Shown: positions 9,843 to 60,499 of the stretch, in pieces
How the letters are laid out: each line of letters begins with the position of its first letter
Numbering within the stretch: the first letter of the stretch is position 1
From: Domibacillus sp. DTU_2020_1001157_1_SI_ALB_TIR_016
GTDB lineage: Bacteria > Bacillota > Bacilli > Bacillales > Domibacillaceae
Direction of reading: 5' to 3'
NCBI RefSeq assembly: GCF_032341995.1
Contig: NZ_CP135438.1
Location: 1,240,001 to 1,304,000, forward strand
DNA length: 64,000 nt
The notes under the pieces: model-generated
What the model was told of the DNA's origin: nothing
The model's database searches: none
Seen by the model: the letters and a program-made list of their open reading frames with translations, nothing else
Program-made: the position numbers and the translations under genes

Positions 9843-11405
<1,563 letters not shown>

Positions 11406-11435
11406 TTACGGAAGTGAGAACTTGGTTCTCACACA

Positions 11436-11462
11436 CGTTGACGCGTTATTTTGTTCAGTTTT
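11436..11462 (+). other. 16S rRNA processing stem, 3' arm
   Basis: CGTTGACG then CGTTATTTTGTTCAGTTTT; pairs with 9749-9774. The 16S-23S spacer (11398-11566) contains no tRNA gene. Confidence 0.75.
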
Positions 11463-11566
11463 GAGGGATGAATTCCTTCTATATTAGATAGTAAACATGA
11501 TTGTTCTTTGAAAACTGGATAATATCGTAAAGTAACACCAAGCAATACCGAGTAATCGCCATTTTA

Positions 11567-14498
<2,932 letters not shown>

Positions 14499-34790: not shown

Positions 34791-34884
34791 GCGAAGGGCT
34801 GGCTTGAGACAATGTGGCAGTAGAAATTTGTAAGTAAACAGTTAATAAAAAAGGATTAGAAAGAATTGAGATGGAAAAGAAACC

Positions 34885-34921
34885 ATTTTGGATTGGCTAA
34901 AAGTATTGGTCAATCCAAAAT
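34885..34921 (+). repeat. hairpin between flavoprotein and ammonium transporter genes
   Basis: ATTTTGGATTG (34885-34895) pairs with CAATCCAAAAT (34911-34921), 15-nt loop, weak T-rich tail. Possible attenuator inside the operon. Confidence 0.55.
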
Positions 34922-34961
34922 AATCTTTATCCTTTTCTCATCATACCGGAGGAGGATTTCA

Positions 34962-41859: not shown

Positions 41860-41916
41860 TGTAAGATAATGTAACAAGTTTTCTGAAAATTTAAACTTTG
41901 TTTCGTTTTTTACAAT
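41860..41916 (+). promoter_or_regulatory. TnrA box, CodY-like box and shared promoter motif A
   Basis: TGTAA-GATAATG-TAACA (41860-41876), exact TnrA consensus. It abuts AGTTTTCTGAAAATT (41877-41891), one mismatch from the CodY consensus. TTTGTTTCGTTTTTTACAAT (41897-41916) follows, identical to the motif before the amine oxidase. The box centre is 43 bp before TACAAT. Confidence 0.75.
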
Positions 41917-42030
41917 AAAAATATTGAAAATCTGACTACTCTATGGATAGTCAAAGCAAAAAGAAACAGATTTGATGCTTTAAAGATCATTTCTTTAGCG
42001 ATACAAAAGAAGGGAGGATTATAAAATAAG
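41917..42030 (+). other. orphan leader resembling the amine oxidase leader, start codon lost
   Basis: Downstream of motif A, the segment with CTCTATGGATAGTCAAAG (from 41938) matches the amine oxidase leader (TTCTATGGATAAGCAAAG, 53461). A ribosome site AAGGGAGGATTATAAA follows at the same distance (about 98 nt after TACAAT), but the position of the start codon reads ATA, followed by five codons and TAA. It appears to be a copied promoter-leader whose gene is gone. Confidence 0.5.
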
Positions 42031-42162: not shown

Positions 42163-42186
42163 TTGACTTACATGGTACATGGTAAA
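42163..42186 (+). promoter_or_regulatory. GntR-type operator, site 1
   Basis: TTGACT at 42163 followed by ACATGGTACATGGT (42170-42183), sharing CATGGTACATGG with the sites at 42337 and 45179. Confidence 0.55.
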
Positions 42187-42295: not shown

Positions 42296-42360
42296 TTGAC
42301 ACATGTATGCGCTTACAGATAAAATTGCATTAAATCTTGCATGGTACATAGTACATGCAA
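42296..42360 (+). promoter_or_regulatory. promoter with GntR-type palindrome, site 2
   Basis: TTGACA (42296-42301), 18-nt spacer, TAAAAT (42320-42325). Then a 24-bp palindromic element 42337-42360 with outer arms TTGCATG / CATGCAA and core GGTACATAGTA. Its position just after the start site suits repression. It could drive the small ORF at 42383 and the NCS1 gene. Confidence 0.65.
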
Positions 42361-45133: not shown

Positions 45134-45197
45134 TTGACAAAGATTACTAATATAAGTAGAATTAAGCCAACAAATAACTTGCATGGTACATGGCACA
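45134..45197 (+). promoter_or_regulatory. promoter and GntR-type operator of cluster 2, site 3
   Basis: TTGACA (45134-45139), 17-nt spacer, TAGAAT (45157-45162). About 16 bp later comes TTGCATGGTACATGGCA (45179-45195), sharing its core with sites 1 and 2. Its location downstream of the start site fits repression by the GntR protein encoded next. Confidence 0.7.
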
Positions 45198-45286
45198 GAA
45201 GGAAGAACAAATATAAAAATTCTTAAAATTTTTATATTTGTTCGCCATTGCACCATGCCCCATATAGGGAGGCGGAAACAACTACC

Positions 45287-45973
45287 ATGATTTTAACAAC
45301 AAGTATAACCACACAAGTAACAAATGCGATCCGTGAAGCAATTGTGACCGGAGAATTTGAGCCAGGCAGAAAATTATCAGAATTTGAACTATCAGAACAC
45401 TATAAAGTAAGCCGGACTCCTGTTAGAGAAGCATTTAAGCAATTGGAAAGAGAAGGTCTTGTAGAAATTATTCCACGGGTTGGCACCTGTGTGACAAAAC
45501 CTACAGAGAAAGAGATTGCAGAGCTATTTACAGTAAAAGAAGTGCTTGAAGGACTCGCAGCCGGCCTTTTGGCCGAAAACAGACATGTGAAGGAAATTGA
45601 TGATCTTCAAAAAGCGGTTCAATCAATGGAAAAAGCAGTTCAGTCCTCTGATCATAAGCAATTTGTTGAAGCAAACAATGCTTTTCACGAAGCAGTGATT
45701 AACGGAGCTAACAATTCAAAATTAAGCTTTATGCTCAATATGTTGATCAATCAAATTCCATATAACCGCTATGTTTACTTGAGTATTGAGGTGCCGAATC
45801 GCTTAGAAAAGTCACTTAAGGAGCATCAATTTATCCTTGAAACCATTCTAAGCGGAAACCGGGAAGCTGCAGAAAAAGCTATGCGAGAGCATGTAAGAGC
45901 AAGCGCGATGCAGCTTCAAAAAGGAATCAGTCAAAAATTACGAGAGATCAATCTAAAGGAGGAAAATATATGA
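45287..45973 (+). CDS. GntR/FCD-family regulator of cluster 2
   Basis: A 228-residue FadR-type regulator: winged HTH (SEFELSEHYKVSRTPVREAFKQLEREGLVEIIPRVGTCV) and helical FCD effector domain (LFTVKEVLEGLAAGLLA, AFHEAVINGANN, EHQFILETILSGNREAAEKAMREHV). It is the first gene of a tight operon; its TGA overlaps the ATG of the monooxygenase. A TTG start at 45248 is possible, but GGGAGGCGG favours ATG 45287. It most likely binds the TGCATGGTACATGGCA-type sites around it and is released by the pathway substrate. Confidence 0.9.
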   Translation: MILTTSITTQVTNAIREAIVTGEFEPGRKLSEFELSEHYKVSRTPVREAFKQLEREGLVEIIPRVGTCVTKPTEKEIAELFTVKEVLEGLAAGLLAENRHVKEIDDLQKAVQSMEKAVQSSDHKQFVEANNAFHEAVINGANNSKLSFMLNMLINQIPYNRYVYLSIEVPNRLEKSLKEHQFILETILSGNREAAEKAMREHVRASAMQLQKGISQKLREINLKEENI

Positions 45974-47121
45974 AATTTGGAATTTTTGCTAACCTGGCAG
46001 GACCTGGTCGTATTGAAGACTATGCAACAGTGCTGGATGAAGCTCGCGAGCAAGCAGTATACTGTGATGAAAACGGTTACGACTCTATCTGGTACACTGA
46101 ACATCATTTTGGACATGAGGGAAATGAACTAATTACCAACCCTATTTTAATGGGGGCAGATATTGCAGCCCGGACAAAGAATATTCGAATTGGACAAGCT
46201 GCAAATGTCGCAACATTTTGGCATCCGCTTCGTTTAGCAGAAGACATTGCCATGCTTGACCAGTTAAGCAAAGGGCGTGTAGAAGTTGGGCTGGCGCGTG
46301 GATTATATGGAAGGGAAGCGGCTAATTTAAACACACTTTCTGACCCAACCAATCAAGCGCAAAATCGGGCTTTGTTTGAAGAAACAGTTGAAATTATGAA
46401 AAAAGCCTGGTCTAATCGATTCTTCTCACACGAAGGAGATATTTATCAATTCCCGCCAAAAGGATTAAAGTGGAATCATCCGATGAGCCCTCCTTCTGAA
46501 GAATACATGGATATGGAAAAAGGCGAAATCAGCAAAATTTCTTTAGTGCCTCAGCCGTATCAAAAACCATTTCCACAACTTTGGCAAACCATTGATTCAC
46601 CGCGGTCGATTGAGCTGGCAGCTGAAAACAACATTAAGGGAATTTTCTGGATGCCTACCGTGAAAGAATTAAAAGGCCGTTTTGAATTGTACCGGGAAAA
46701 AGCATCTGCAGCACGTGGATACGATGTACCGCTTGGAGAGGGTATTGCACTTGTGCGGGATGTATATGTGGCGGAAACGATGGAGCAGGCAAGAGAAGAT
46801 GCGGCAGAAGCTGTACTCAATACGTATCGTTGGATTTGCCATTGGCGTGGACTGGGCAACTTAATGGATCCAGGTGAAGCTGTGAAAGAAGGCCAGGAAT
46901 TAAACTATGATTTTCTTCATCCGCGTAACTTATTATTTGGAACACCAGAGTATGTAACAGAGAAAATCAAAGAGCTGCAGGAAGAATTAAACTTGCAAAA
47001 TCTTTTGTTATGGGTGAACCACAGTCACCTGCCTCATGAAAAAGTAATGAAAAGCTTGAAATTATTTACAGAGCAAGTAATGCCGAACTTTACAAATACA
47101 AATCAGGAGGTATACCTATAA
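45970..47121 (+). CDS. luciferase-like (LLM) flavin-dependent monooxygenase
   Basis: A 383-residue bacterial-luciferase-family TIM barrel. It has MKFGIFANLAGPG, YDSIWYTEHHFGHEGNELITNPILMGADIAARTKNIRIGQAANVATFWHPLRLAEDIAMLDQLSKGRVEVGLARG and SLVPQPYQKPFPQLWQTIDS. It requires reduced FMN from a separate reductase (50067). Relatives cleave rings, for example RutA (uracil) and TgnA (trigonelline). No RutB/RutC homologues are here, so uracil is unlikely. The ATG overlaps the GntR stop. It is the central candidate for ring opening or oxygenation in cluster 2. Confidence 0.9.
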   Translation: MKFGIFANLAGPGRIEDYATVLDEAREQAVYCDENGYDSIWYTEHHFGHEGNELITNPILMGADIAARTKNIRIGQAANVATFWHPLRLAEDIAMLDQLSKGRVEVGLARGLYGREAANLNTLSDPTNQAQNRALFEETVEIMKKAWSNRFFSHEGDIYQFPPKGLKWNHPMSPPSEEYMDMEKGEISKISLVPQPYQKPFPQLWQTIDSPRSIELAAENNIKGIFWMPTVKELKGRFELYREKASAARGYDVPLGEGIALVRDVYVAETMEQAREDAAEAVLNTYRWICHWRGLGNLMDPGEAVKEGQELNYDFLHPRNLLFGTPEYVTEKIKELQEELNLQNLLLWVNHSHLPHEKVMKSLKLFTEQVMPNFTNTNQEVYL

Positions 47122-47699
47122 TGCTAGAAGTGAGAAAAGTGTACACAGCGGTTGAAGAAACTCGGATCGATGGCGGAAAAAAACTTGATACTCCAATTAA
47201 AATGATTACTACAATGCTGGTGATGAAAAATCCTTGGGCAGGCAGAGGGTACGTGGAAGATTTGATGCCGGAAATTAATGCCTACGCTCCTGAAATCGGT
47301 GAAATTTTAGTGTCGGAACTATTCAAGCATATTGATTCGGCAGCGGATGTAGAGGCATTTGGAAAAGCGGCTGTCGTAGGTGCGGATGGAGAAATGGAGC
47401 ATGCCTCGGCTTTTATCCATACATTGAAATTTGGAAATAAATTCAGAGATGCTGTGCAAGGAACAAGTATTTTAACTTTCACCAATAAACGCGGCGGACC
47501 GGGAACAGCTGTAACGATTCCAATGGTGCATAAAACTGATGAATCAGAACGGTCTCACTTTATTACATTTGAGGCAGCGATTCCTGATGCGCCACGAGCT
47601 GATGAAATTGTAGTAGCTATCGGTGCTTCCACAGGCGGGCGTCCTCATCCGAGAACAGGAAACCGTCACCTGGATATGATTGAGATGGGGCTTGTCTGA
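47121..47699 (+). CDS. DUF1185 / 'amino acid synthesis' family protein
   Basis: A 192-residue protein of the DUF1185 (AA_synth) family, recognisable from MLVMKNPWAGRGYVEDLMPEI, AAVVGADGEMEHASAFIHTLKFGNKFRDAVQG and IVVAIGASTGGRPHPRTGNRHLDMIEMG. No member has a settled biochemical function to my knowledge. The start overlaps the preceding stop by one base (TAATG) and the end overlaps the hydrolase start (TGATG), so it is translationally coupled on both sides. It probably acts on the ring-cleavage product or as a hydrolase, but this is a guess. Confidence 0.85.
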   Translation: MLEVRKVYTAVEETRIDGGKKLDTPIKMITTMLVMKNPWAGRGYVEDLMPEINAYAPEIGEILVSELFKHIDSAADVEAFGKAAVVGADGEMEHASAFIHTLKFGNKFRDAVQGTSILTFTNKRGGPGTAVTIPMVHKTDESERSHFITFEAAIPDAPRADEIVVAIGASTGGRPHPRTGNRHLDMIEMGLV

Positions 47700-48490
47700 T
47701 GCCTATAGCAGGGACTACTTATTATAAAGAAATAGGGCAGGGTGAGCCGCTTATTCTTATTCATGGAGTAGGTCTAGACCATTCTATGTGGGAAAAGCAG
47801 GTTGAAGCTTTATCCAGCCAGTTTCGTGTCATTGTGTACGATATGGTTGGGCATGGAGGATCAGAGCATCCTCCAGCCCCTTATTCTATTTCCCAGTTTG
47901 CGAAACAGCTGTCTGATTTAATGGAGCATTTAAACATTAAGAAAAGCCACATTGTTGGGTTTTCAATGGGCGGCATGACGGCTCAAGCCTTTGCCTTAGC
48001 GTATCCTGAAAAAGTCAAAACATTAACGATTATGAGTGCAGTGGCAAACCGAACGAACGTGCAGCGGGCGGCAATATTAAGTAGAGTTCAAGAACTAAAA
48101 GCCAAAGGACCTTCAGCTACGATTGAACCAGCTATCCAGCGCTGGTTCAGCAAAGCGTTTCAAGAGCAAAACCAACGCATAGTTCAACAAATAAGACAGA
48201 GGCTTCAGCATAATAACCCCGAGTCATACTTGGCAGCATATACGCTTTTCGCAACCGCTGACGAGGAATTATGGACAAATTTTCATGAAATAAATGTCCC
48301 CGTTTTCATCATAACGGGAGAAGAAGATGTGGGTTCAAACCCACAGATGTCAGAGCAAATGCATGAAAAATTATCACAATCCAAGCTTACCATTGTACCG
48401 GGCATGAAGCATATGCTGCCCGTAGAAGGCGCAGCTCTTGTGAATGAAGCGCTTTCTTCATTTATTCATTCGCAAGCAGCAGTAAAATAA
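47699..48490 (+). CDS. alpha/beta hydrolase (enol-lactonase/amidohydrolase-like)
   Basis: A 263-residue alpha/beta-fold hydrolase with LILIHGVGLDHSMWE (oxyanion loop), VYDMVGHGGSE, nucleophile GFSMGGM (Ser about 98), Asp in TGEEDVGSN and His in VPGMKHMLPVE. The triad is intact. Relatives include 3-oxoadipate enol-lactonase, RutD and the hydrolases that cleave acylaminomethylene-succinates in vitamin B6 and trigonelline degradation. The latter would split the opened ring into succinic semialdehyde, a one-carbon acid and an amine. Exact substrate unknown. Confidence 0.88.
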   Translation: MPIAGTTYYKEIGQGEPLILIHGVGLDHSMWEKQVEALSSQFRVIVYDMVGHGGSEHPPAPYSISQFAKQLSDLMEHLNIKKSHIVGFSMGGMTAQAFALAYPEKVKTLTIMSAVANRTNVQRAAILSRVQELKAKGPSATIEPAIQRWFSKAFQEQNQRIVQQIRQRLQHNNPESYLAAYTLFATADEELWTNFHEINVPVFIITGEEDVGSNPQMSEQMHEKLSQSKLTIVPGMKHMLPVEGAALVNEALSSFIHSQAAVK

Positions 48491-48502
48491 AGGAGGAGTC
48501 TC

Positions 48503-50023
48503 ATGGAACAGACAGTAAAGGGAATGAGCCTCGATCGTTCTACTGACTTGAAAAAATACAATTTATATATAAACGGAGAATGGGTGGAGCCAGCGAGTCA
48601 TGAATATTTTCCAAGCTATAACCCTGCAACGGGTGAAGCATGGTGTGAAGTCGCAAAAGGAACAGCTGAAGACGTTGACAAAGCTGTACAGGCAGCTCAC
48701 CATGCTTTTTTGCATTCAGACTGGGCAAGCATGACGTTCACTGAAAGAGGACGCCTTGTTTACAGGCTGGGGGAGCTAATTGCCGAAAATATCGAAGAAT
48801 TGGCACGCTATGAATCTATTGATAACGGTAAATTAATCAGGGAAATGCGCGGACAGCTCCGTTATTTACCAGAGTTTTTCTACTATTACGCCGGACTTGC
48901 TGATAAGATTCATGGCCATACACTGCCGATTGATAAACAAGATATGTTTACCTTCACATCAAGAGAGCCGCTTGGAGTCGTTGCGGCCATCACACCATGG
49001 AACTCGCCTCTATATTTAACAACCTTAAAGCTGGCTCCTGCACTTACTGCGGGAAATACGATTGTTATTAAACCTTCTGAAATGACATCTGCTTCATTAC
49101 TAGAACTTGTTAAGCTTGTTGAAAAAGCAGGTTTCCCGCCTGGAGTCGTAAACGTTGTGACTGGGTTTGGGATGCCTGTAGGAAATACGTTAACTGCTCA
49201 TCCGCTTGTTCGAAAAGTAGCGTTTACCGGAGGTGCTGAATCGGCCCGCCATGTGGTACGGAATACAGCGGAAAATTTTGCGCAGCTTTCCTTGGAGCTT
49301 GGCGGTAAGTCACCCAATATTGTTTTTAAGGATGCCGATTTAGACAATGCGGTCATGGGCATCATTGCAGGCATTTTTGGCGCTTCTGGACAAAGCTGTG
49401 TAGCGGGATCAAGAGCACTTTTACACGTAGACATTTATGATCAAGTAATAGAAAAGTTGATTGACCGGATTTCCCGCATTAGAATTGGTGACCCGCTTCA
49501 TGATGACAGCGAAATGGGCCCTCTTGCCACTCCAGCTCAGCTAAAGCGTGTAGAAGAATTTGTTGCGCTTGGTTTGGCAGAAGGCGGAAAAATACTGTAT
49601 GGCGGCAAAAGACCAGAGCATTTACAGAATGGCTGGTATTTTGAACCCACTATTTTTGAATATGCGGACCAAACTTCCCGCCTGACACAAGAAGAAATAT
49701 TTGGACCTGTTCTCAGTGTCATTCCTTTCAGGGATGAAGCAGAAGCCATTGCCCTTGCAAACGGTACAGAATACGCGCTTGCAGCCGGCATTTGGACAAG
49801 CGACTTAGCAAAAGCACATCGTGTAGCAAAAGCAGTGCAAGCTGGCATCGTCTGGGTGAATACATACCGCAGCATTTCACCAATGGCGCCAATAGGCGGA
49901 TCAGGTCTAAGCGGGTACGGACGGGAAGGCGGCTATGAAGCGATTTATGAATATACGCAAAGCAAGACGGTTTGGATAAATTTATCTCAAGAGTCAATGC
50001 CTGATCCTTTCATTATGCGGTAA
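48503..50023 (+). CDS. aldehyde dehydrogenase (ALDH1 of cluster 2)
   Basis: A 506-residue NAD(P)-dependent aldehyde dehydrogenase with TPWNSPLYLTTLKLAPALTAGN (Asn of the oxyanion site), FTGG, ELGGKSPNIVF (general base Glu), GASGQSCVAGSR (nucleophile Cys) and EEIFGPVLSV. All catalytic residues are present. It would oxidise an aldehyde produced by ring cleavage. It starts 12 bp after the hydrolase with AAAGGAGGAG. Full family length, cytoplasmic. Confidence 0.92.
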   Translation: MEQTVKGMSLDRSTDLKKYNLYINGEWVEPASHEYFPSYNPATGEAWCEVAKGTAEDVDKAVQAAHHAFLHSDWASMTFTERGRLVYRLGELIAENIEELARYESIDNGKLIREMRGQLRYLPEFFYYYAGLADKIHGHTLPIDKQDMFTFTSREPLGVVAAITPWNSPLYLTTLKLAPALTAGNTIVIKPSEMTSASLLELVKLVEKAGFPPGVVNVVTGFGMPVGNTLTAHPLVRKVAFTGGAESARHVVRNTAENFAQLSLELGGKSPNIVFKDADLDNAVMGIIAGIFGASGQSCVAGSRALLHVDIYDQVIEKLIDRISRIRIGDPLHDDSEMGPLATPAQLKRVEEFVALGLAEGGKILYGGKRPEHLQNGWYFEPTIFEYADQTSRLTQEEIFGPVLSVIPFRDEAEAIALANGTEYALAAGIWTSDLAKAHRVAKAVQAGIVWVNTYRSISPMAPIGGSGLSGYGREGGYEAIYEYTQSKTVWINLSQESMPDPFIMR

Positions 50024-50066
50024 TGTGACGAGAAAGCGCGATCATTTACTAAAGGAGGAAGAATTC

Positions 50067-50615
50067 ATGAAATTGCTAGGTATCTCAGGAACGATTACGG
50101 GCTCAAAAACACGGGTTGTCATCCAAAAAATGCTGGAAGACATTAAGCACAGCCATCCGGAGGTTGATATTGAACTGCTGGATTTAAAAGAATATAATCT
50201 TCAGTTTTGTGATGGGCGCAATCCGGCAGATTACACGGGCGATACTAGAAAAGTCATTGATATGGTTTCCTCAGCTGATTTTTATCTGATCGGTACGCCA
50301 ATTTTTCAAGGATCTATCACAGGGGCATTAAAAAATTTATTTGATTTAATCCCGCCTCAACATTTTCGCAATAAAGTCATGGGTTTCGCAGCAACAGGGG
50401 GCACGTACCAGCATTACCTTGTTATCGAAAATCAGTTAAAGCCGATCGCCAGCTATTTCCGTGCTTTTGTGGCACCTGGCTCTGTCTACGCCCATAATGA
50501 CCATTTTAATGCTCAAAATGAAATTGTTGACCCAGAAGTGTTGAAACGAATGGCCAGCCTTAGTGAAGAATTGGTTTTCATGCAAAAAATGCTGAAAGAA
50601 CCTCAATACAGCTAA
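50067..50615 (+). CDS. NAD(P)H-dependent FMN reductase
   Basis: A 182-residue flavodoxin-fold reductase: LLGISGTITGSKTRVVIQ, the middle IGTPIFQGSITGALKNLFDLIPPQHFRNKVMGFAATGGTYQHYLVIENQLKPI. It supplies FMNH2 to the LLM monooxygenase at 45970. An upstream in-frame start (50025) has no ribosome site; AAAGGAGGAAG precedes ATG 50067. It is distinct from, but related to, the reductase of cluster 1 (38188), so each cluster has its own reductase. Confidence 0.88.
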   Translation: MKLLGISGTITGSKTRVVIQKMLEDIKHSHPEVDIELLDLKEYNLQFCDGRNPADYTGDTRKVIDMVSSADFYLIGTPIFQGSITGALKNLFDLIPPQHFRNKVMGFAATGGTYQHYLVIENQLKPIASYFRAFVAPGSVYAHNDHFNAQNEIVDPEVLKRMASLSEELVFMQKMLKEPQYS

Positions 50616-50627
50616 AGGTGGCTCACT

Positions 50628-51053
50628 ATGAAAAAACAAAGCAGCATGTCCAAAACGTTTTGCGGCAAAGTGGTTTCTGGAAATCAAATCGGGCGAACGA
50701 TCGGGTTTCCAACGGCTAACCTTTCCATTGATTCGAGCACACCGTTCTTGGAAAAAGGTGTATACGGTGTCAAAGTAAAGTATCGGGATCAGGATTATTA
50801 CGGAATTATGAACGCTGGAAATCGTCCGACGATTAATAAAGAAAATCTTCAGCTTCATTATGAAGTGCACATATTTGACTTTTGTGAAGAAATATATGAT
50901 CAGGAATTAACGGTGGAAACATGCTTTTTTATAAGAAAAGAAATGTCTTTTCAGTCTCTTGAAAAGCTTGTCCGGCAAATTAACCGAGATGTTCAATATG
51001 CCAAATGGAAATTTAGTATAAAGCATGATATAGAAAATATTTTTTGGGGCTAG
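50628..51053 (+). CDS. stand-alone riboflavin kinase (RibR flavokinase domain)
   Basis: A 141-residue riboflavin kinase domain: FCGKVVSGNQIGRTIGFPTANLSID (ATP and riboflavin signature), GVYGVKVKYRDQDYYGIMNAGNRPTI, LQLHYEVHIFDF and EIYDQELTVE (catalytic Glu region). It lacks the FAD synthase half of RibF. It resembles the first half of B. subtilis RibR, encoded in a sulfur operon beside LLM monooxygenases. It would raise FMN for the monooxygenase and reductase encoded upstream. Ribosome site AAAGGTGG. Ends with TAG that is part of the next gene's AGGAGAG. Confidence 0.88.
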   Translation: MKKQSSMSKTFCGKVVSGNQIGRTIGFPTANLSIDSSTPFLEKGVYGVKVKYRDQDYYGIMNAGNRPTINKENLQLHYEVHIFDFCEEIYDQELTVETCFFIRKEMSFQSLEKLVRQINRDVQYAKWKFSIKHDIENIFWG

Positions 51054-51063
51054 GAGAGATAAA

Positions 51064-51363
51064 ATGAAGCGGCATGTCGAAGAAATTATTCATTTGCCTG
51101 ATCTGGCATTTATTCATTTTTGCTGCGAGCATTATGGTATTAATAGAGGCGTTTATAATACTATTGATTCCTGGTTCTACGAGCAGGGGGTTGAACATGT
51201 CATTGAGCGCCGCAGACAAATCCTTTTATGTCTTAGATTTATCAAAGAAAAACAGGAAGATAAAAACGGTCGGTGTAAGTTTGGGAATGGAGGCTTGAAG
51301 ATAAAGCTGCAGGAATACATCGCAAGCGAAAAAGAAGTCTCGAAGAAAGCAGTAACCGTTTAA
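51064..51363 (+). CDS. RibR C-terminal-like domain as separate protein (probable FMN-riboswitch regulator)
   Basis: A 99-residue protein (HLPDLAFIHFCCEHYGINRGVYN, IDSWFYEQGVEHVIERRRQILLCLRF, KFGNGGLKIKLQEYI) that matches what I remember of the C-terminal half of B. subtilis RibR. That half binds the FMN riboswitch and relieves FMN repression of flavin synthesis. Here it is encoded in another frame with its own ribosome site (TAGGAGAGATAAA) right after the kinase stop. So the two RibR functions are two polypeptides, or the gene was split by a frameshift that gained a start. No FMN riboswitch is in the window, so any target is elsewhere. Confidence 0.7.
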   Translation: MKRHVEEIIHLPDLAFIHFCCEHYGINRGVYNTIDSWFYEQGVEHVIERRRQILLCLRFIKEKQEDKNGRCKFGNGGLKIKLQEYIASEKEVSKKAVTV

Positions 51364-51393
51364 TCTTTGCTGAGAAAGGAGTGTCTATCTACG

Positions 51394-52836
51394 ATGCCAA
51401 ATATTAAAAGTTTAATAAAAAAAGATTTAATCATTAATGGAGAACAAATTGAAACAGAGAAGTATACAACGCTTTACGCTCCTTATTCAGGAGAAGCTAT
51501 TGCAGAAATTGCATCTGCCACGGGAATCGAAACAGAGCAAGCCATAACAGCAGCTTATAAGGCGCGTGAAACGATGGCATCTATGCCAGCCTGGAAGCGT
51601 GCAGAAATTTTAGAAACGGCAGCACAGCTTTTAAAGGATCGGACAGAAGAAGCTTCCAGCATCATTGCTTTAGAAGCAGCCAAGCCTTTAAATACAGCTC
51701 GGCAGGAAGTGGCACGGACTGTAGAAACATATAAATTTGCGGCAGAAGAAGCAAAACGAATTCATGGAGAAACGATACCGCTCGATGCAGCGCGCAGTGG
51801 AGAAAACAAGCTTGCTTATACAGTTCGTGAACCAATTGGGGTAGTAGGTGCGATTACACCGTTTAATTTTCCAATGAATCTAGTTGCTCATAAAGTAGGT
51901 CCGGCTATCGCAAGTGGAAATACGATCGTTTTAAAGCCCGCTTCGCAAACACCACTCTCTTCTTTTTTTATCGCAGAGCTTTTTGAAGAAGCAGGGCTTC
52001 CGGCAGGCGTGTTAAACGTGATAACGGGAAGCGGCCGTATCGTTGGGGATCAGCTTGTAACAGACGAGAGAGTCAGCATGATCACTTTTACGGGCAGTCC
52101 GGCTGTTGGTATTGGCATCCGCAATAAAGCAGGATTGAAGAAAGTCACATTGGAGCTTGGATCTAACGCTGCTGTTATAATTGATCAGCATACAGCACTT
52201 GATCAAATTGCTTCCCGCTGTGTTACCGGTGCATTTTCCAATCAGGGCCAAGTATGCATATCACTTCAGCGCATTTATGTACATGAAAAAGTTTATGAAG
52301 AATTTGTTGAAAAATTGATCATTGAAACAAAAAAGCTGGTTCTCGGTGACCCCCTTTGCTCAGAAACCAATATTTCTGCGCTCATTTCGCCGGAAGAGAC
52401 GAAACGTGCGCTCAGCTGGATTAAAGAAGCCGTAAAAAGTGGTGCAAAACTAGTAACGGGAGGAGAGGTTGAAGGAACAGTGCTTCAGCCAACGATCCTG
52501 TTAGAAGCAGGCCAGTCCATGAAAGTTTCCTGCCAGGAAGTTTTTGCGCCAATCGTGATCGTCAACAAAGTAACAACAATAGAGGAAGCGATTGAAAAAG
52601 TAAATGATTCCCGATATGGCCTCCAAGCAGGCATTTACACAAATGATGTGCAAACCGCTTTGACTGCAGCAGATCAATTACACGTTGGCGGTGTAATGAT
52701 CAATGATATTCCCACATTCCGGGTAGACCATATGCCGTATGGAGGAGTAAAAGAAAGCGGAACCGGGCGGGAAGGATTAAAATACGCGATTGAAGAAATG
52801 ACGGAAATGAAACTGGTTGTCTGGAGCCGGCAGTAA
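51394..52836 (+). CDS. aldehyde dehydrogenase (ALDH2, succinic-semialdehyde/glyceraldehyde type)
   Basis: A 480-residue ALDH of the GabD/lactaldehyde/non-phosphorylating GAPDH branch: TPFNFPMNLVAHKVGPAIASGN, FTGSPAVG, LELGSNAAVII (general base Glu; the usual Gly-Gly is Gly-Ser), FSNQGQVCISLQR (nucleophile Cys) and EVFAPIV. It may oxidise succinic or malonic semialdehyde to a central metabolite at the end of cluster 2. AAAGGAGTG lies 13 nt before ATG 51394; start moderately sure. The short gap to the RibR part keeps it in the operon. Confidence 0.9.
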   Translation: MPNIKSLIKKDLIINGEQIETEKYTTLYAPYSGEAIAEIASATGIETEQAITAAYKARETMASMPAWKRAEILETAAQLLKDRTEEASSIIALEAAKPLNTARQEVARTVETYKFAAEEAKRIHGETIPLDAARSGENKLAYTVREPIGVVGAITPFNFPMNLVAHKVGPAIASGNTIVLKPASQTPLSSFFIAELFEEAGLPAGVLNVITGSGRIVGDQLVTDERVSMITFTGSPAVGIGIRNKAGLKKVTLELGSNAAVIIDQHTALDQIASRCVTGAFSNQGQVCISLQRIYVHEKVYEEFVEKLIIETKKLVLGDPLCSETNISALISPEETKRALSWIKEAVKSGAKLVTGGEVEGTVLQPTILLEAGQSMKVSCQEVFAPIVIVNKVTTIEEAIEKVNDSRYGLQAGIYTNDVQTALTAADQLHVGGVMINDIPTFRVDHMPYGGVKESGTGREGLKYAIEEMTEMKLVVWSRQ

Positions 52837-52847
52837 GGAGGAGTGTT

Positions 52848-53123
52848 ATGGCTTATTATGCGGCCTTGCTTCATATGATGGACCCAGAAAAAAACCAAGA
52901 AGTACTCCCGCGTCATATTGAATATTTAAACCATCTTGATAAAGAAGGAAAAATCCTAGCGAGGGGCCCTTTTGGAGACGGCTCTGGCGGACTTGTGATC
53001 TATCAGGCAGACTCTTTTGAAGAAGCAGCAGTGCTTGCGGAAAAAGATCCGCATGTGCTTGAAAAAGTGCGCCGCCTTGAACTAAAAGAATGGAAAGTCT
53101 GGACGCCCCCTGATAGGGCTTAA
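52848..53123 (+). CDS. YciI-family protein
   Basis: A 91-residue dimeric alpha-beta-barrel protein of the YciI family: MAYYAALLHMMDPEKNQEVLPRHIEYLNHLDKEGKILARGPFGDGSGGLVIYQADSFEEAAVLAEKDPHV. The His of RHIEYL and Asp of FGDG are the conserved catalytic-type pair. Members include muconolactone-isomerase-like and dehalogenase-like enzymes, most unassigned. It ends the cluster 2 operon, 11 bp after ALDH2 with AAGGAGGAG. It probably acts on a lactone or tautomer in the pathway. Confidence 0.87.
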   Translation: MAYYAALLHMMDPEKNQEVLPRHIEYLNHLDKEGKILARGPFGDGSGGLVIYQADSFEEAAVLAEKDPHVLEKVRRLELKEWKVWTPPDRA

Positions 53124-53240
53124 ACAAAGGGATGTGGAAGGTTTCTTAAGCAGCCGGCTGCTCGCCGCCAATGGGCAGCTGGCTGTTTCGTGTGGGTTTA
53201 AAGACAGGTCTTCACAGCGGGCCAGCTTAAAACGACCAAA

Positions 53241-53286
53241 TAAAGACATGAACCTGGGTATCTCCAGGTTCATGTCTTTATTTTTT
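53241..53286 (+). terminator. terminator of catabolic cluster 2
   Basis: TAAAGACATGAACCTGG (53241-53257) and CCAGGTTCATGTCTTTA (53264-53280), perfect 17-bp stem, followed by TTTTTT. Confidence 0.95.
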
Positions 53287-53381: not shown

Positions 53382-53438
53382 TGTCAGAAAAGTTAACAAT
53401 CTCCCTTAAATTAGTCAATTTGTTTCGTTTTTTACAAT
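53382..53438 (+). promoter_or_regulatory. TnrA box and shared promoter motif B of the amine oxidase
   Basis: TGTCA-GAAAAGT-TAACA (53382-53398), exact TnrA consensus. TTTGTTTCGTTTTTTACAAT (53419-53438) ends in the -10-like TACAAT 43 bp after the box centre. No -35 of note. About 105 bp of leader follow before the ATG, including TTCTATGGATAAGCAAAG shared with 41938. Confidence 0.78.
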
Positions 53439-53544
53439 CAACGAGTCCGAAAACGGCGTATTCTATGGATAAGCAAAGTGACAAGCGAACGATTAGTCAT
53501 TTTGAAAGAAAAATATTCGGAACGAATTAAAGGAGGATTTATTT

Positions 53545-55515
53545 ATGCAAACACCTGAATTGAAAACTCAAACAATCTTACATCCACTTGAGCCCCTAAC
53601 AGCTGAAGAAATAAGAGAAGCGGTGGCGCTGATTAGACAAGATAAAAGTTTGACAGAAACGTATAAATTTGTTCAGGTGGTGTTGTATGAACCATTGAAA
53701 GAAGAAGTAGCCAGCTTTAAAGAAGGCGACCCGATCGACCGTAAGGCATTTATCATTCTGCTTGACAGCGCTGAAAACAAAACATATGAAGCGATTGTAT
53801 CGATCACAAACGAGCAGGTGCTCTCTTATGTACATATTCCAGATGTACAGCCAAACTTCTTGCTGGATGATTTTGAAATTGAAGAGCTGATTAAAAATGA
53901 TCCTGAATATCAAAAAGCCCTTTTAAAAAGAGGCGTTACCGATCCAAGCCTAGTCATGATCGACCCCTGGTCAGCCGGCCATTTCAATGATCTGGATAAT
54001 CCAGACACACGTGTAACACGGGCGCTTGCCTGGGTTCGCAAATCGGAAAAAGACAATGGCTATGCATATCCATTAACGGGTCTTTACGCAATCGTCGATT
54101 TAAATAAAAAAGAAATTGTCCGTATTGAAGATTACGGCGTAAAACCGCTGCCGCCAACAGCTGGCAATTACGTGCCGGAATTAAATGAAAACATTCAGGT
54201 GCGTACAGACGTAAAGCCGCTGGATATCATTCAGCCGGAAGGCCCGAGCTTTGAAATCAACGGCCATCATATCAAGTGGCAGAAATGGGATTTCCGCATC
54301 AGCTTTACGCCGCGAGAAGGGCTTGTTATTCACTCTGTCGGATTCGAAGATAAAGGAAAAAGAAGACCGATTTTATACAGAGCTTCCTTGTCTGAAATGG
54401 TTGTTCCATATGCAGATACATCGGAAATGCACGGCCGTCAAAATGCGTTTGATGCCGGAGAGTACGGAATGGGCCAGCTGGCGAATTCATTAGAATTAGG
54501 CTGCGACTGCGTTGGGCATATTCATTATTTTGATGCGGTCATGGCGGATCATAAAGGAGACGTCCGCACGATTCCAAATGCGATCTGCCTGCACGAAGAA
54601 GATTACGGCATTGCCTGGAAACATACGGACTGGAGAACAAATGAAGTGGAAGTGCGCCGCTCACGCCGTTTGGTCGTTTCCTTCTTCTCGACTGTAGCCA
54701 ACTATGATTACGGCTTCTTCTGGTCCTTCTACCAAGACGGCACAATTGAACAGGAAGTGAAGCTGACAGGAATGCTGAATACCGGCGCGCTGGATGAAGG
54801 CGAAGTTCCGAAATACGGAAATTTAGTAGCGCCGCAGTTAAATGCAACGTTCCACCAGCACTTCTTTAACTTCCGTCTCGATATGGAGCTTGATGGAGCG
54901 AAAAACTCTGTTGTAGAAACGGAAACTGTGGCGGAAGAAAGAGGGGAACACAATCCGTTCAATAATGGATGGTACCCTGTGTCCAAAACGTTTAAAACGG
55001 AAAAAGAATCGGTCCGTAAAATGAATTTGGAAACCGTACGCACATGGAAAATTATTAACCCAGAATCAAAGAATTTTGTCGGACAGCCGGTGGGCTACAA
55101 AATTGTAACGGGCGAAAACTGCCTTCCGTTTGCGAATGACGATTCCAGCTTGATCAAACGGGCCGGCTTCTTGAAAAACCACCTTCATGTCACGAAGTTT
55201 GACCGTAACGAGCAATTTGCATCTGGCGCTTATCCCAATCAGCATCGTGGTGGAGACGGCTTGACGAAATACCTTGAAGCGGACCGCAATATTGAAAATG
55301 AAGATATTGTCGTCTGGTACACAATGGGTCACCATCACATCACTCGTCCGGAAGACTGGCCGGTTATGCCGACTGCGTATACAAACTTCCAGCTGAAGCC
55401 GGTTGGATTCTTTGATCACAATCCAGCGCTTGACCTGCCGCGTCCAGAATCAAAAACCAAGTGTCAATCAAACACAAGTGCTTCTTCCTCTTGCGGGCAT
55501 TCAACAGAGATTTAA
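53545..55515 (+). CDS. copper-containing primary amine oxidase (topaquinone enzyme)
   Basis: A 656-residue cytosolic copper amine oxidase like the Arthrobacter methylamine, histamine and phenethylamine oxidases. The topaquinone precursor Tyr is in VANYDYGFFW (Asn-Tyr-Asp-Tyr). The copper ligands are the His-x-His of FHQHFFN and the later His of YTMGHHHITRPEDWP. The catalytic-base Asp lies in the earlier barrel part. It oxidises RCH2NH2 to aldehyde, NH3 and H2O2; given the neighbouring dimethylamine and formaldehyde genes, methylamine is the likely substrate. No signal peptide. The C-terminus is Cys/Ser-rich. AAAGGAGG before the ATG; TnrA-box promoter. Confidence 0.95.
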   Translation: MQTPELKTQTILHPLEPLTAEEIREAVALIRQDKSLTETYKFVQVVLYEPLKEEVASFKEGDPIDRKAFIILLDSAENKTYEAIVSITNEQVLSYVHIPDVQPNFLLDDFEIEELIKNDPEYQKALLKRGVTDPSLVMIDPWSAGHFNDLDNPDTRVTRALAWVRKSEKDNGYAYPLTGLYAIVDLNKKEIVRIEDYGVKPLPPTAGNYVPELNENIQVRTDVKPLDIIQPEGPSFEINGHHIKWQKWDFRISFTPREGLVIHSVGFEDKGKRRPILYRASLSEMVVPYADTSEMHGRQNAFDAGEYGMGQLANSLELGCDCVGHIHYFDAVMADHKGDVRTIPNAICLHEEDYGIAWKHTDWRTNEVEVRRSRRLVVSFFSTVANYDYGFFWSFYQDGTIEQEVKLTGMLNTGALDEGEVPKYGNLVAPQLNATFHQHFFNFRLDMELDGAKNSVVETETVAEERGEHNPFNNGWYPVSKTFKTEKESVRKMNLETVRTWKIINPESKNFVGQPVGYKIVTGENCLPFANDDSSLIKRAGFLKNHLHVTKFDRNEQFASGAYPNQHRGGDGLTKYLEADRNIENEDIVVWYTMGHHHITRPEDWPVMPTAYTNFQLKPVGFFDHNPALDLPRPESKTKCQSNTSASSSCGHSTEI

Positions 55516-57763: not shown

Positions 57764-58720
57764 TTATAAGTCCAAAACAAGACAGTCTGTCTTAGCACGG
57801 GATACACAAGTGAGCATCACATTTTCTTCAGCTTTTTCTAAGTCGGTTAAAAAGAAATCACGGTGGTCTACTTCCCCGCCGCTCACGGGAACAAGGCAGC
57901 TTCCACATCCTCCGACTTTACATGAATAGGGAGCCTTCACTCCATGAGCAAGCAGTGCATCGAGTACAGTTTCGTTTTCAGAAACAGGGATTGTTTCCCC
58001 GCTTTGCTTCAGCTTGACCTGAAGAGGATGAGACGGACCAAAATCAGGAGGAGAAAAACGTTCAAAATGAATGCTTTTGTCCAGGTAGCCGTATTTTTTG
58101 GCTGCTTCCGCAAATTCGTTCATCATGGCTTCTGAACCGCAAAAATAAACGTGCGTGCCGATCGGCTGCTGTTTCAATAAGCTGGTATGCATTCTTTGCT
58201 GTCGGTCCGAAAAGTAAAAATGGGTTTGCTCCGGATAAGCCTGTTTTAAAAAAGAATAAAATGCGCACTGTTCGTTTGAAGGCGCAGCATAGTGCAATTC
58301 AAACGATTTTTCTTTTCGTTTTAAATCTGCTGTCATCGCTAAAAACGGTGTAATGCCGATGCCGGCTGCAAAAAAGACATGATGTTTTGCCTGAAAACTG
58401 AGCGGAAAATGATTTTTGGGATAGCTGATCTGCAGCCGTGCTCCTTTTTGAACCTTGCTATGCCAGTAAACAGAGCCTTCTTTTGAAACGGCCTGACGCC
58501 GAATCGCAATTTGGTAAGCTGACGTATCAGCTGGATGGCTTGTTAAAGAATAGTGCCGCTCCAGCACTCCATCTTCTTTGGGGAGAAACGTTGTAATATG
58601 CGAACCCGCACTAAATCTTGGCAGGGGAACGTTTTCTGCTGGTACAAGTGTAAAACTTTTAACAGAAGGCGACTCTTCTTTTATATCAGCCACAAAAACA
58701 TCGATTACAGCATTCGTCAT
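57764..58720 (-). CDS. ferredoxin-NAD(P)H reductase subunit of dimethylamine-monooxygenase-type system
   Basis: A 318-residue PDR/VanB-type reductase. It has an N-terminal FMN/FAD barrel (HYSLTSHPAD), a nicotinamide domain (VFFAAGIGITPFLAM, VYFCGSEAMMNEF) and a C-terminal plant-type [2Fe-2S] ferredoxin (APYSCKVGGCGSCLVPVSGG with a further Cys in MLTCVSRA). All four cluster Cys are present. It passes electrons from NAD(P)H to the haem oxygenase encoded upstream. ATG 58720 follows AAAGGATGATGAGG; earlier in-frame starts overlap that site. Last gene of the operon before the terminator. Confidence 0.9.
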   Translation of the reverse strand: MTNAVIDVFVADIKEESPSVKSFTLVPAENVPLPRFSAGSHITTFLPKEDGVLERHYSLTSHPADTSAYQIAIRRQAVSKEGSVYWHSKVQKGARLQISYPKNHFPLSFQAKHHVFFAAGIGITPFLAMTADLKRKEKSFELHYAAPSNEQCAFYSFLKQAYPEQTHFYFSDRQQRMHTSLLKQQPIGTHVYFCGSEAMMNEFAEAAKKYGYLDKSIHFERFSPPDFGPSHPLQVKLKQSGETIPVSENETVLDALLAHGVKAPYSCKVGGCGSCLVPVSGGEVDHRDFFLTDLEKAEENVMLTCVSRAKTDCLVLDL

Positions 58721-58742
58721 CCTCATCATCCTTTCAAAAAAA

Positions 58743-59294
58743 TCAAACACGGATATATCCTAAATAAGCATCATGCCGTTTGGAGTAGTGGGAAGAAACA
58801 TCCAATTCAGTACGGCAGCTTGGACAAACAAAAAATTCTTTTTCATTTCGGTCATGGCGTGAATAGCATTTTACACAGAAGACAGTATCTTTTTGAGAAC
58901 CGATGACTTTTAGCTGCATTTCTTCATCTGAAAATCCGGCTGTTTCTGCTTCACTTCGAACTGTTTTAACAAAAGACGAACTTCCGGATACCACCAAGCG
59001 GGTGCCGATAAATTGAATGCGTAATATGGATAAAAGTCTTTCCGAAGAAACGGTTACCAGGCAGTCGAGCGGGTGAGAAGAAAGCTCCGGGTAAGAGGAA
59101 AGGATTTGTTTCTTTTTTTGTTTTGTTTGAACAATAAAATGCACTCGGATATCAGTTGAAAAAAAAGGCTGTAAAGATGAAAAGCCCTCTGACAGGGCCG
59201 CTTCATCTAACACGATAAGCAGTTTGGCTGTATGGGACGGGATGGAAAAATAATTGATTTCTTCTGCTTCTATTATTTCGAATAAAGGGGTCAT
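58743..59294 (-). CDS. DmmA-family subunit of dimethylamine monooxygenase
   Basis: A 183-residue protein. The N-terminal part has nucleotide-enzyme-like strands (KLLIVLDEAALSEGF, RVHFIVQTKQ region). A short C-terminal domain has Cys pairs (VFCVKCYSRHDRNEKEFFVCPSCRTEL) like a rubredoxin or zinc ribbon. I recall this two-part layout from proteins named DmmA in dimethylamine monooxygenase operons. Its ATG overlaps the stop of the haem subunit gene (ATGA), so they are translated together. Probable role: electron transfer or regulatory subunit. Confidence 0.75.
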   Translation of the reverse strand: MTPLFEIIEAEEINYFSIPSHTAKLLIVLDEAALSEGFSSLQPFFSTDIRVHFIVQTKQKKKQILSSYPELSSHPLDCLVTVSSERLLSILRIQFIGTRLVVSGSSSFVKTVRSEAETAGFSDEEMQLKVIGSQKDTVFCVKCYSRHDRNEKEFFVCPSCRTELDVSSHYSKRHDAYLGYIRV

Positions 59295-60274
59295 TTTATT
59301 GCCTCCTCCTGTATGGATAGATGTTTCTCCAAAAAAGCTAGCAAACTTCCTTTATAGGAAATAAAGCCTTTGTACTCAGCAATGTAGTCCGGCAGGTCAC
59401 TTAATACCCGGTAAAAGCGCTCGGTCCATTCGGGCTTTTCGAGAAGAGCATTTAAAGATATCAAGTGGCTGTGAATACTAAACAAAAGTCCATTGCTTTC
59501 AGGTAGGCGAAATAAACGCTGGTCTTCTGTACGCAGATAAACGAGCTCTCCGGCTGTTTCGGCTGTCACTGCTTCTTTTTTGCTGCCCCAGTCACTGAAT
59601 GTTTCTGGAAATGTATCAAGGATAGGTTCAACTGTTAACGTCCAATTCAGCCGTGTCCAGGGTTTGCCGGCTTCCATGCGCATTAGGAACGACCGTACTT
59701 TTTCCGCTAACCCGCTGTCAGAAAAAACAGGGACAGGGGAATGGAATTCCAGGTAAGACATCCCCAGGTTAAAGTGGATAGACCAGTTGGCAGGAAAGCA
59801 AAGCTGGCCGGCATCCATAAAAAGATCACTGTCTTTTTGTGAGATGTAAATTAAGTCTTCCTGTACATGGCGGCCGATAAAGTCTAATGGTTCATAAGGG
59901 AGGGTGGAAGCATCTCCAAAACGAAACACTTCTTTTTCTTGAAGCAAATAGTTGTGAAACGTCCAGGTATCTTCTTTTTTGGCTACGTGAAAGTAATCGG
60001 GATAATGGGCGGTAAGCTGGTTGACGACAAGCTCTAATATTTCCCACTGAGCATTGATAGAATGGGAGAAAGATTGAAAAGCCCGTTCAGGCGTTTGAGA
60101 TAAAATGCGCCGTTTTAATTGGATTTCCTCATAATATTCTGGCGTAATCGTAATGGCGGGTGAGGAAGCTAGCGTTTCGGAATTATTAGAATAGCGGTAT
60201 GAATCTTCTTTGAACGGAAACGGAAAACGATTGACTAAAGGGCTGTTTGGAATATCGACCATATGGTTTGACAT
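59291..60274 (-). CDS. haem-dependent oxidative N-demethylase (DUF3445), dimethylamine monooxygenase catalytic subunit
   Basis: A 327-residue DUF3445 protein. FPFPF near the N-terminus, HVAKKEDTWTFHNYLLQ, IGRHVQEDLIYISQKDSDLFMDAGQLCFPANWSIHFNLGMSYLEFHSPVP and LVYLRTEDQRLFRLPESNGLLFSIHSHLISLNAL are characteristic. Such enzymes use haem and O2 to remove a methyl group from dimethylamine as formaldehyde, leaving methylamine. An upstream ATG (60358) lacks a ribosome site; GGAGGGATAAAATC precedes ATG 60274. First gene of a three-gene operon. Its products feed the amine oxidase and HxlA. Confidence 0.88.
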   Translation of the reverse strand: MSNHMVDIPNSPLVNRFPFPFKEDSYRYSNNSETLASSPAITITPEYYEEIQLKRRILSQTPERAFQSFSHSINAQWEILELVVNQLTAHYPDYFHVAKKEDTWTFHNYLLQEKEVFRFGDASTLPYEPLDFIGRHVQEDLIYISQKDSDLFMDAGQLCFPANWSIHFNLGMSYLEFHSPVPVFSDSGLAEKVRSFLMRMEAGKPWTRLNWTLTVEPILDTFPETFSDWGSKKEAVTAETAGELVYLRTEDQRLFRLPESNGLLFSIHSHLISLNALLEKPEWTERFYRVLSDLPDYIAEYKGFISYKGSLLAFLEKHLSIQEEAIK

Positions 60275-60442
60275 GATTTTATCCCTCCAATGAAATAAGA
60301 TAGCGGTATTTAATCGATTTACCTGTACGCCGATCATGTCATAAAACGCAAAAACCAAGCCAGACCCTTTTCTTGACTATCGGGAAAAATGATACTTTTA
60401 TGTAAGAAAATATATCATTAAAAAGAAAACAACAAAAAATCT

Positions 60443-60499
60443 TGTCAGATAATTTTCCAATTTGCTTTGAAAGAAGAATTTAGTTTCGTTTTATACAAT
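60443..60499 (+). promoter_or_regulatory. near-TnrA box and shared promoter motif C
   Basis: TGTCA-GATAATT-TTCCA (60443-60459), one mismatch to TNACA. TTAGTTTCGTTTTATACAAT (60480-60499) follows, with the box centre exactly 43 bp before TACAAT as at 41860 and 53382. A second one-mismatch box TGTAA-GAAAATA-TATCA (60401-60417) may serve the divergent dimethylamine operon. Confidence 0.65.

Follow-up and report, generated by a model that had tools for sequence, protein, structure and literature searches.

What does Domibacillus sp. DTU_2020_1001157_1_SI_ALB_TIR_016 break down with the ten tightly coupled genes at positions 45287-53123 of the DNA analyzed here? This DNA, called the window below, is a stretch of 64,000 nucleotides (NCBI RefSeq assembly GCF_032341995.1, contig NZ_CP135438.1, positions 1,240,001 to 1,304,000 of the forward strand). 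The ten genes encode a GntR regulator, a luciferase-like monooxygenase (LLM), a DUF1185 protein, an alpha/beta hydrolase (ABH), an aldehyde dehydrogenase (ALDH1), an FMN reductase, a RibR-type kinase, a separate RibR tail, a second aldehyde dehydrogenase (ALDH2) and a YciI-like protein, and an NCS1 importer and a CMD protein are encoded upstream. A preliminary description of this DNA had proposed an N-heterocycle ring-opening set resembling the trigonelline (Tgn) pathway, a proposal that is supported here and narrowed. The operon, together with NCS1 and CMD, probably lets the cell take up a betaine of the N-methylated pyridine carboxylate type and open its ring; the first candidate is trigonelline, a plant compound and pyridine-ring betaine. 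To judge by its sequence, this is a real and conserved catabolic operon, trigonelline-type by gene content and not by its oxygenase. We draw on the gene content and conservation of the clusters, on the classes of importer, on the distribution of a motif, on the type of the LLM and on the kinship of the ALDHs.

Results

Conservation of the operon

The ten open reading frames (ORFs) all lie on the + strand with gaps of -4, -1, -1, 12, 1, 12, 10, 3 and 11 bp, which confirms the tight coupling described earlier. The gene names assigned then agree with our domain searches, in which Pfam recognized NCS1, CMD, GntR/FCD, Bac_luciferase, AA_synth/DUF1185, alpha/beta hydrolase, Aldedh, FMN_red and Flavokinase, and NCBIfam models covered the second ALDH, the amine oxidase and YciI (Table 1).

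For comparison, we used the best 80 of 289 LLM relatives from a scan of genome contigs, chosen by LLM match: 31 Bacilli loci (among them L005 of the host's own species, Domibacillus indicus, the closest named record, with an LLM 100% identical), 35 actinobacterial loci and 14 SAR11 loci. By tblastn at thresholds of our own choosing, DUF1185 was present in 31/31, 35/35 and 13/14 of these, respectively, ABH in 31/31, 33/35 and 14/14 (one SAR11 match, in L081, being stray), ALDH1 in 31/31, 33/35 and 13/14, and GntR in 28/31, 33/35 and 0/14. None of the 31 Bacilli loci lacks LLM, DUF1185, ABH or ALDH1, and only three are without a GntR match, so the grouping goes beyond chance. At the same thresholds several parts were confined to Bacilli, namely the 99-aa RibR tail (30/31), YciI (25/31), the FMN_red gene (22/31), ALDH2 (21/31), NCS1 at 60% identity or more (12/31), the RibR kinase (10/31) and CMD (4/31).

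Neighbor counts of importers, flavin reductases, isochorismatase genes and motif classes come from loci extending +/-10 kb and from a simple gene caller that misses or misstarts genes, worst in high-GC loci; the labels BCCT, NCS1b, isochorismatase and flavin reductase rest on Pfam scans of one to three members per group. By this count, a flavin reductase gene of some kind lies near in 30/31 Bacilli and 21/35 actinobacterial loci. In the SAR11 cluster L072 the order is LLM, thiamine diphosphate (ThDP) enzyme, DUF1185, ABH and ALDH; a flavin reductase gene was not seen adjoining it. Its ThDP enzyme (11167-12867), inserted between LLM and DUF1185, resembles acetolactate synthase and sulfoacetaldehyde acetyltransferase below the cut-offs. 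Two tandem DUF1185 genes of different branches were observed in the actinobacterial loci L041 (11134-12299) and L060 (11112-12313).

Around the host, the LLM is sparsely distributed: at 1e-120 it was found in 3/24 genomes of the host's family, two of them being the host and its own species, and at 1e-150 in 1/299 genomes of the order, the host alone.

A module shared with trigonelline-type clusters

The Tgn pathway of Acinetobacter baylyi, like the clusters that we call trigonelline-type from their gene content, brings together GntR, LLM, flavin reductase, DUF1185, ABH and ALDH, as the window does. A locus of Acinetobacter baumannii (L087), which carries no annotation and was interpreted with tblastn and hmmscan, holds GntR, DUF1185, ABH, flavin reductase, LLM, ALDH, NCS1, an ALDH of the succinic semialdehyde dehydrogenase (SSADH) type and CMD; NCS1, CMD and a second ALDH are thus further likenesses to the window. 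On pSymA of S. meliloti, near nifT, lie GntR, DUF1185, ABH, flavin reductase, LLM, ALDH, NIPSNAP, an ABC importer and SSADH (L089), which we take to be the trigonelline (trc) locus. The same families are clustered in Leisingera (L088), Pantoea (L124) and Mesorhizobium (L123), the cluster records being drawn from a plasmid collection. The window differs from these clusters in gene order, in the added RibR genes, in a second ALDH of another subfamily and in an LLM of another branch, and from the Acinetobacter cluster also in its flavin reductase, which belongs to PF03358 and not to PF01613.

The preliminary description had found no Tgn counterpart for DUF1185 and CMD, and this part of it was wrong. 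TgnF of the trigonelline pathway is a homologue of the DUF1185 protein HcdD and stimulates TgnE-dependent oxidation of succinic semialdehyde, an effect that the authors did not observe for HcdD, according to the available part of PMC7913881. The window DUF1185 is 51-54% identical to those of the five trigonelline-type clusters (54% for Acinetobacter), and between the CMD proteins of the window and the Acinetobacter cluster the identity is 64%. For YciI, only NIPSNAP or DUF1330 genes were found at a similar place, with no sequence match. The window shares with the Tgn set a flavin reductase partner, a TgnC-like ALDH and a TgnF/DUF1185 protein, and lacks a trigonelline-type LLM. In that pathway TgnC is the ALDH for the ring-opened aldehyde and TgnD the hydrolase.

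ALDH1 is 49-52% identical to the ALDHs of the trigonelline-type clusters. In a tree of hand-picked loci, the ALDHs of the alphaproteobacterial loci L109 and L110 and of SAR11, all from clusters with a window-type LLM, join the trigonelline-type ALDH (support 99/95, starred, for L109, with unstarred values of 92/86 and 92/91 for the other two), and the window's own ALDH1 sits with the Bacilli. Since a single clade for all ALDHs of window-type-LLM clusters was rejected (p 1.1e-9), oxygenase and ALDH appear to have separate histories, which would be expected of one module receiving similar aldehydes from different oxygenases. The alphaproteobacterial locus L109 (4413-18226) also carries a Rieske oxygenase, a DAO-family oxidoreductase and a GMC oxidoreductase, possibly for N-demethylation steps. 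In the DUF1185 tree, likewise of hand-picked loci, the trigonelline-type proteins fall on one branch and the rest is poorly resolved.

A separate branch of LLM oxygenases

The window LLM is 25-28% identical to the trigonelline-type LLMs, five of which are 59-73% identical among themselves; the LLMs of Bacilli, actinobacteria, SAR11 (61% identical to the window's) and L109 are at least 48% identical to each other. In a tree of hand-picked loci the two types each formed one group with RutA and SsuD outside both, on long reference branches whose placement is unsure. The LLM of Agrobacterium fabrum pAt (L122) is 26% identical to that of the window and 40-44% identical to the trigonelline type, in contrast to the CMD (50%) and DUF1185 (56%) of the same cluster, which also comprises flavin reductase, ALDH, ABH and NIPSNAP. 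Among known folds, flavin monooxygenases such as RslO1, luciferases and 3,6-diketocamphane monooxygenase were the best matches of the predicted structure of the window LLM (pLDDT 85.9), and SsuD ranked 26th; these matches give no indication of the substrate.

That the LLM could be an ordinary sulfur- or aldehyde-type monooxygenase, in a cluster that does not act on a ring, is very improbable. The model with which the FMN_red protein scores highest is indeed MsuE (117 of 212.5 bits), and a Peribacillus plasmid carries RibR-type genes next to an LLM of lower identity (36%). Against this, the window LLM as query matched the trigonelline-type LLMs with 91-112 bits and E. coli SsuD with 11.7 bits, and it scored only 34.6 of 279.7 bits with the NtaA/DmoA model and 25.7 of 518.2 bits with the alkanesulfonate model. 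We therefore reject an identity as sulfonate or nitrilotriacetate (NTA) monooxygenase, and as far as the comparisons were run the LLM does not group with alkane, sulfonate or NTA enzymes. An alkanesulfonate (Ssu) system would, moreover, have an SsuD-type LLM, and no sulfonate importer was found among the listed neighbors. On plasmids, DUF1185 of this type occurs (at 1e-30) in 340 records and the trigonelline-type LLM of S. meliloti (at 1e-60) in 326, with nearly equal counts by genus (Rhizobium 157/153, Sinorhizobium 72/72, Leisingera 17/17).

A strict rule of one LLM type per genome was considered and dropped: in a comparison that covered 40 of the 80 loci, 38 of 39 window-type genomes had no trigonelline-type match at 1e-40 and the single match was 39% identical, but the genome G254 carries both types.

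Importers and an operator-like motif

A BCCT or NCS1 importer gene lies near the operon in 62 of 66 Gram-positive loci, that is in 29/31 Bacilli (12 BCCT only, 12 NCS1 only, 5 both, 2 none) and 33/35 actinobacterial loci (10 BCCT only, 23 NCS1 only, 0 both, 2 none). BCCT proteins import betaine, carnitine and choline. The window NCS1 is 36-37% identical to the NCS1 proteins of the Acinetobacter and Pantoea clusters, and the A. fabrum cluster adjoins a glycine-betaine ABC importer, a further likeness in transport. The importer classes thus indicate a zwitterionic quaternary nitrogen and, with the ALDH2 clues given below, favor trigonelline.

The same chemistry on another N-heterocycle, such as N-methylisonicotinate, 1-methylnicotinamide, pyridine or a lactam, seems improbable to us. 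NCS1 proteins often carry nucleobase-like rings, and an isochorismatase-fold (amidase-type) gene lies downstream in 10/31 Bacilli loci, which would fit an amide precursor; another isochorismatase-type family occurs in 5/35 actinobacterial loci, in L060 beside NCS1. Such a gene may add an amide precursor to the pathway, yet none was found among the listed ORFs of the window, and the BCCT genes of 17/31 Bacilli and 10/35 actinobacterial loci speak for a betaine. The E. coli Rut pyrimidine pathway is comparable in that it opens a ring and employs an LLM with flavin reductase as well as an alpha/beta hydrolase; however, RutA falls outside the group of the window-type and trigonelline-type LLMs (on a long branch), no RutA model was among the NCBIfam matches of the window LLM, no RutC-like gene is among the ten, and the ABH is closer to the PcaD model (181.9 of 255.9 bits) than to the RutD model (108.5 of 238.5 bits). 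In L007, L008, L013, L014, L018, L020, L021, L024, L026 and L027 the isochorismatase-fold gene, and then an NCS1 gene, follow YciI.

The motif ATGGTACATG is common to 25 of 28 GntR upstream regions (the window and 27 Bacilli loci, L005 left out); in 20 shuffled sets of these regions the commonest 9-mer reached at most 5/28. The 31 Bacilli loci hold 76 copies in 630,735 bases, against a mean of 0.87 and a maximum of 8 for 200 letter permutations, and no copy was found in the actinobacterial, SAR11 or alphaproteobacterial loci. Copies lie within -350/+60 of the start of 26/30 GntR, 11/18 BCCT, 7/20 NCS1, 9/10 isochorismatase (amidase-type) and 1/4 CMD genes, classes that together take 65 of the 76, and of 0/54 ALDH genes. 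In the host genome, eight places lie within one mismatch of TGCATGGTACATG (reversed control, two); three are the sites before NCS1 and GntR, the only ones outside ORFs, and the other five are inside ORFs, one of them perhaps an antisense ORF. At three mismatches the window itself gave 9 matches against 6.0 expected, which is chance level. The promoters ahead of the sites at 42337 and 45179 are the two best TTGACA matches in a promoter scan of the region. Because the motif stands before both NCS1 and GntR, we count NCS1, and perhaps the CMD gene that follows it, with the operon, and we infer that GntR binds these candidate operator-like sites.

Between promoter and GntR lies a perfect 17-bp inverted repeat with a 5-bp loop (45205-45243); the 116-base region around it folds at -35.3 kcal/mol (z -6.3). 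The repeat occurs once in the genome. L005 has only a shorter form, with 9-bp arms, and a search ahead of GntR gave nothing similar for the other Bacilli loci tried.

ALDH2 and the choice between trigonelline and homarine

ALDH2 matched moss ALDH21 (5mz5), described as a demonstrated SSADH in the available part of PMC7823795, with 389.5 bits at rank four, behind three uncharacterized ALDHs. Residues R139 and R475 of the 5mz5 chain align with R117 and R452 of ALDH2. We take them to be the substrate-binding Arg121 and Arg457; arginines at such places also occur in non-phosphorylating glyceraldehyde-3-phosphate dehydrogenases. ALDH2 is 33-35% identical to the SSADHs of the trigonelline-type clusters and does not look like a TgnE orthologue. 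We predict from these comparisons that it is an SSADH of the ALDH21 type.

This prediction bears on the chief rival reading, rather unlikely in itself, in which the same chemistry would act on homarine (N-methylpicolinate) and yield products near 2-oxoglutarate or N-methylglutamate in place of succinic semialdehyde. Homarine belongs to an isomeric substrate class, and SAR11, which shares the LLM, carries the window-type core; a homarine catabolic operon of marine bacteria is the subject of a paper of 2026 (Ferrer-Gonzalez et al., cited in PMC13390433). The available part of PMC8269262 reports homarine to be far more abundant than trigonelline in marine samples and considers TgnA/TgnB unlikely to act on it for steric reasons, so that a different LLM branch would fit. 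The genome with both LLM types also suits homarine, as does the absence of ALDH2 from the actinobacterial and SAR11 loci, since homarine would need none. The ALDH21-type ALDH2 of 21/31 Bacilli loci nevertheless points to succinic semialdehyde, and the CMD is close to that of the Acinetobacter cluster. In addition, the homarine operon is common in Alphaproteobacteria, whereas the window-type LLM was found at 1e-90 in only 8/385 alphaproteobacterial genomes, one being the SAR11 genome of the query itself.

Flavin supply and the RibR tail

The "split RibR" of the preliminary description does not look like a broken gene, since the tail was matched in 30/31 Bacilli loci and is an ORF of its own in 24. 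Kinase and tail are fused in L007 and L034, and in L009 a DHBP-synthase-flavokinase fusion precedes the tail. The 99-aa protein had no Pfam match; its model is all-helical (pLDDT 85.7), and a PDB fold search gave no match at E <=0.001. A second copy of the tail, 45% identical, was seen elsewhere in the host genome (C1:1672817-1673062). B. subtilis RibR likewise joins a flavokinase to an extra tail, although there the tail is not a separate gene; LLM genes presumably neighbor ribR in that organism. RibR binds RNA and appears to disturb the FMN riboswitch, as stated in the available part of PMC12542839. Our guess is that the separate tail acts on the FMN riboswitch here too.

Downstream amine genes

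The amine oxidase gene does lie downstream, as had been described, but it does not look like a member of the operon: the 421 bp between the two hold a 20-pair hairpin and no operator motif, and the gene occurs in 1/31 Bacilli loci, that of the host's species (tblastn). The hairpin scan as a whole gave no more sites than shuffled sequence (11 against a mean of 14.2). Among solved structures the oxidase comes closest to phenylethylamine oxidase, with 524 bits against 405 for yeast methylamine oxidase, which speaks against methylamine as its substrate. A 20-bp identical element and a 10-bp block with the same 43-bp spacing occur before an AraC gene (41897-41956) and before the amine oxidase (53419-53478), which suggests that the latter may belong to an amine regulon; such a regulon could serve for methylamine set free by ring opening as well. 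A weaker copy of the 20-bp block stands at 60480, before an ammonium-transporter gene (60933-62300, +). Beside the latter lie dimethylamine-monooxygenase-like genes (57764-60358, -) for a ferredoxin reductase (Fer2/DmmA-N-like), a DmmA-like and a HODM-like (HODM_asu-like) protein. A second ammonium-transporter gene was seen at 34866-36314. The host genome, of 5.1 Mb, has a single DUF1185 gene, and Rfam scans of window positions 36000-60000 and of five loci gave nothing at gathering scores.

Table 1. Positions of the operon, its upstream genes and sites, and the downstream amine oxidase in the window.
Feature	Position	Strand	Basis or remark
Operator-like site TTACATGGTACATG, 5' of NCS1	42168..42181	+	1 mismatch to TTGCATGGTACATG; exact ATGGTACATG at 42172
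Promoter-like TTGACA-18-TAAAAT (42296-42325), then operator-like site (42337-42350)	42296..42350	+	1 mismatch of 14
NCS1 importer (PF02133), 469 aa	43108..44517	+	Pfam
CMD protein (PF02627), PcaC-like, 128 aa	44625..45011	+	Pfam; PcaC model 155.0 of 155.7 bits
Promoter-like TTGACA-17-TAGAAT (45134-45162), then operator-like site TTGCATGGTACATG (45179-45192)	45134..45192	+	Exact, 5' of GntR
GntR/FCD regulator	45287..45973	+	Pfam; in-frame TTG start at 45248 possible versus ATG at 45287
LLM flavin-dependent monooxygenase, 383 aa, predicted ring-opening oxygenase	45970..47121	+	Pfam, identities, tree, model
DUF1185 protein (PF06684), TgnF-like	47121..47699	+	Pfam
ABH, PcaD-like, predicted formate and methylamine release	47699..48490	+	Pfam, NCBIfam
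ALDH1, kin of trigonelline-type ALDH	48503..50023	+	Identity, tree, clade test
NADPH-dependent FMN reductase (PF03358)	50025..50615	+	Pfam, NCBIfam
RibR-type riboflavin kinase	50628..51053	+	Pfam
99-aa protein, RibR tail, predicted all-helical	51064..51363	+	ORF gaps, comparison, model
ALDH2, predicted succinic semialdehyde dehydrogenase, ALDH21 type	51367..52836	+	Structure-database match
YciI-like protein	52848..53123	+	NCBIfam, 36.6 of 149 bits
Terminator-like hairpin, 20 pairs	53238..53283		Between operon and amine oxidase
Copper amine oxidase, outside operon, possible methylamine user	53545..55515	+	NCBIfam, structure-database match

Discussion

Several of our results weigh against the degradation of trigonelline. 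The LLM is distant from the trigonelline type and forms a group of its own, and the occurrence of both types in G254 suggests different substrates there. The ABH is only 29-33% identical to those of the trigonelline-type clusters, and ALDH2 scored 376.3 of 646.4 bits, below the cut-off, with the SSADH model. ALDH2 is missing at our thresholds from every actinobacterial and SAR11 locus, and one of the four Bacilli loci with CMD is that of the host's species. Finally, the reference proteins of the trigonelline-type clusters are not the tested Tgn enzymes.

With these points taken into account, we still favor a pyridine betaine, probably trigonelline, as the substrate, and the proposed chemistry is carried over from the trigonelline pathway. 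NCS1 would import the betaine. FMN reductase would supply FMNH2, with which the LLM and O2 would open the ring to an N-formyl-N-methyl enamine aldehyde, and ALDH1 would oxidize this ring-opened aldehyde. The ABH, aided by DUF1185 and CMD, could then release formate, methylamine and succinic semialdehyde, the last of which ALDH2 would convert to succinate. FMN would come from RibR, whose separate tail may prevent riboflavin synthesis from being shut off. GntR would repress both promoters through the ATGGTACATG sites until substrate arrives.

We give an even chance to a broader proposal, that a second, separately recruited LLM branch in Bacilli, actinobacteria and SAR11 opens pyridine betaines and so does the same job as the proteobacterial trigonelline-type enzyme, the module of DUF1185, hydrolase and ALDH remaining constant. 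Among the matches listed in our literature searches there was no paper on this Gram-positive cluster, subscription papers being mostly outside their reach.

The ATGGTACATG motif offers a simple handle for finding the regulon and testing its inducer. If our reading is true, it would provide a testable function for a family of LLMs found in Gram-positive bacteria and SAR11, and likewise for the DUF1185 proteins that go with it, still listed in databases under "amino acid synthesis family" or "peptide synthetase". It would also add Bacilli and actinobacteria to the users of pyridine betaines, compounds through which nitrogen and one-carbon units from plants and algae can pass.

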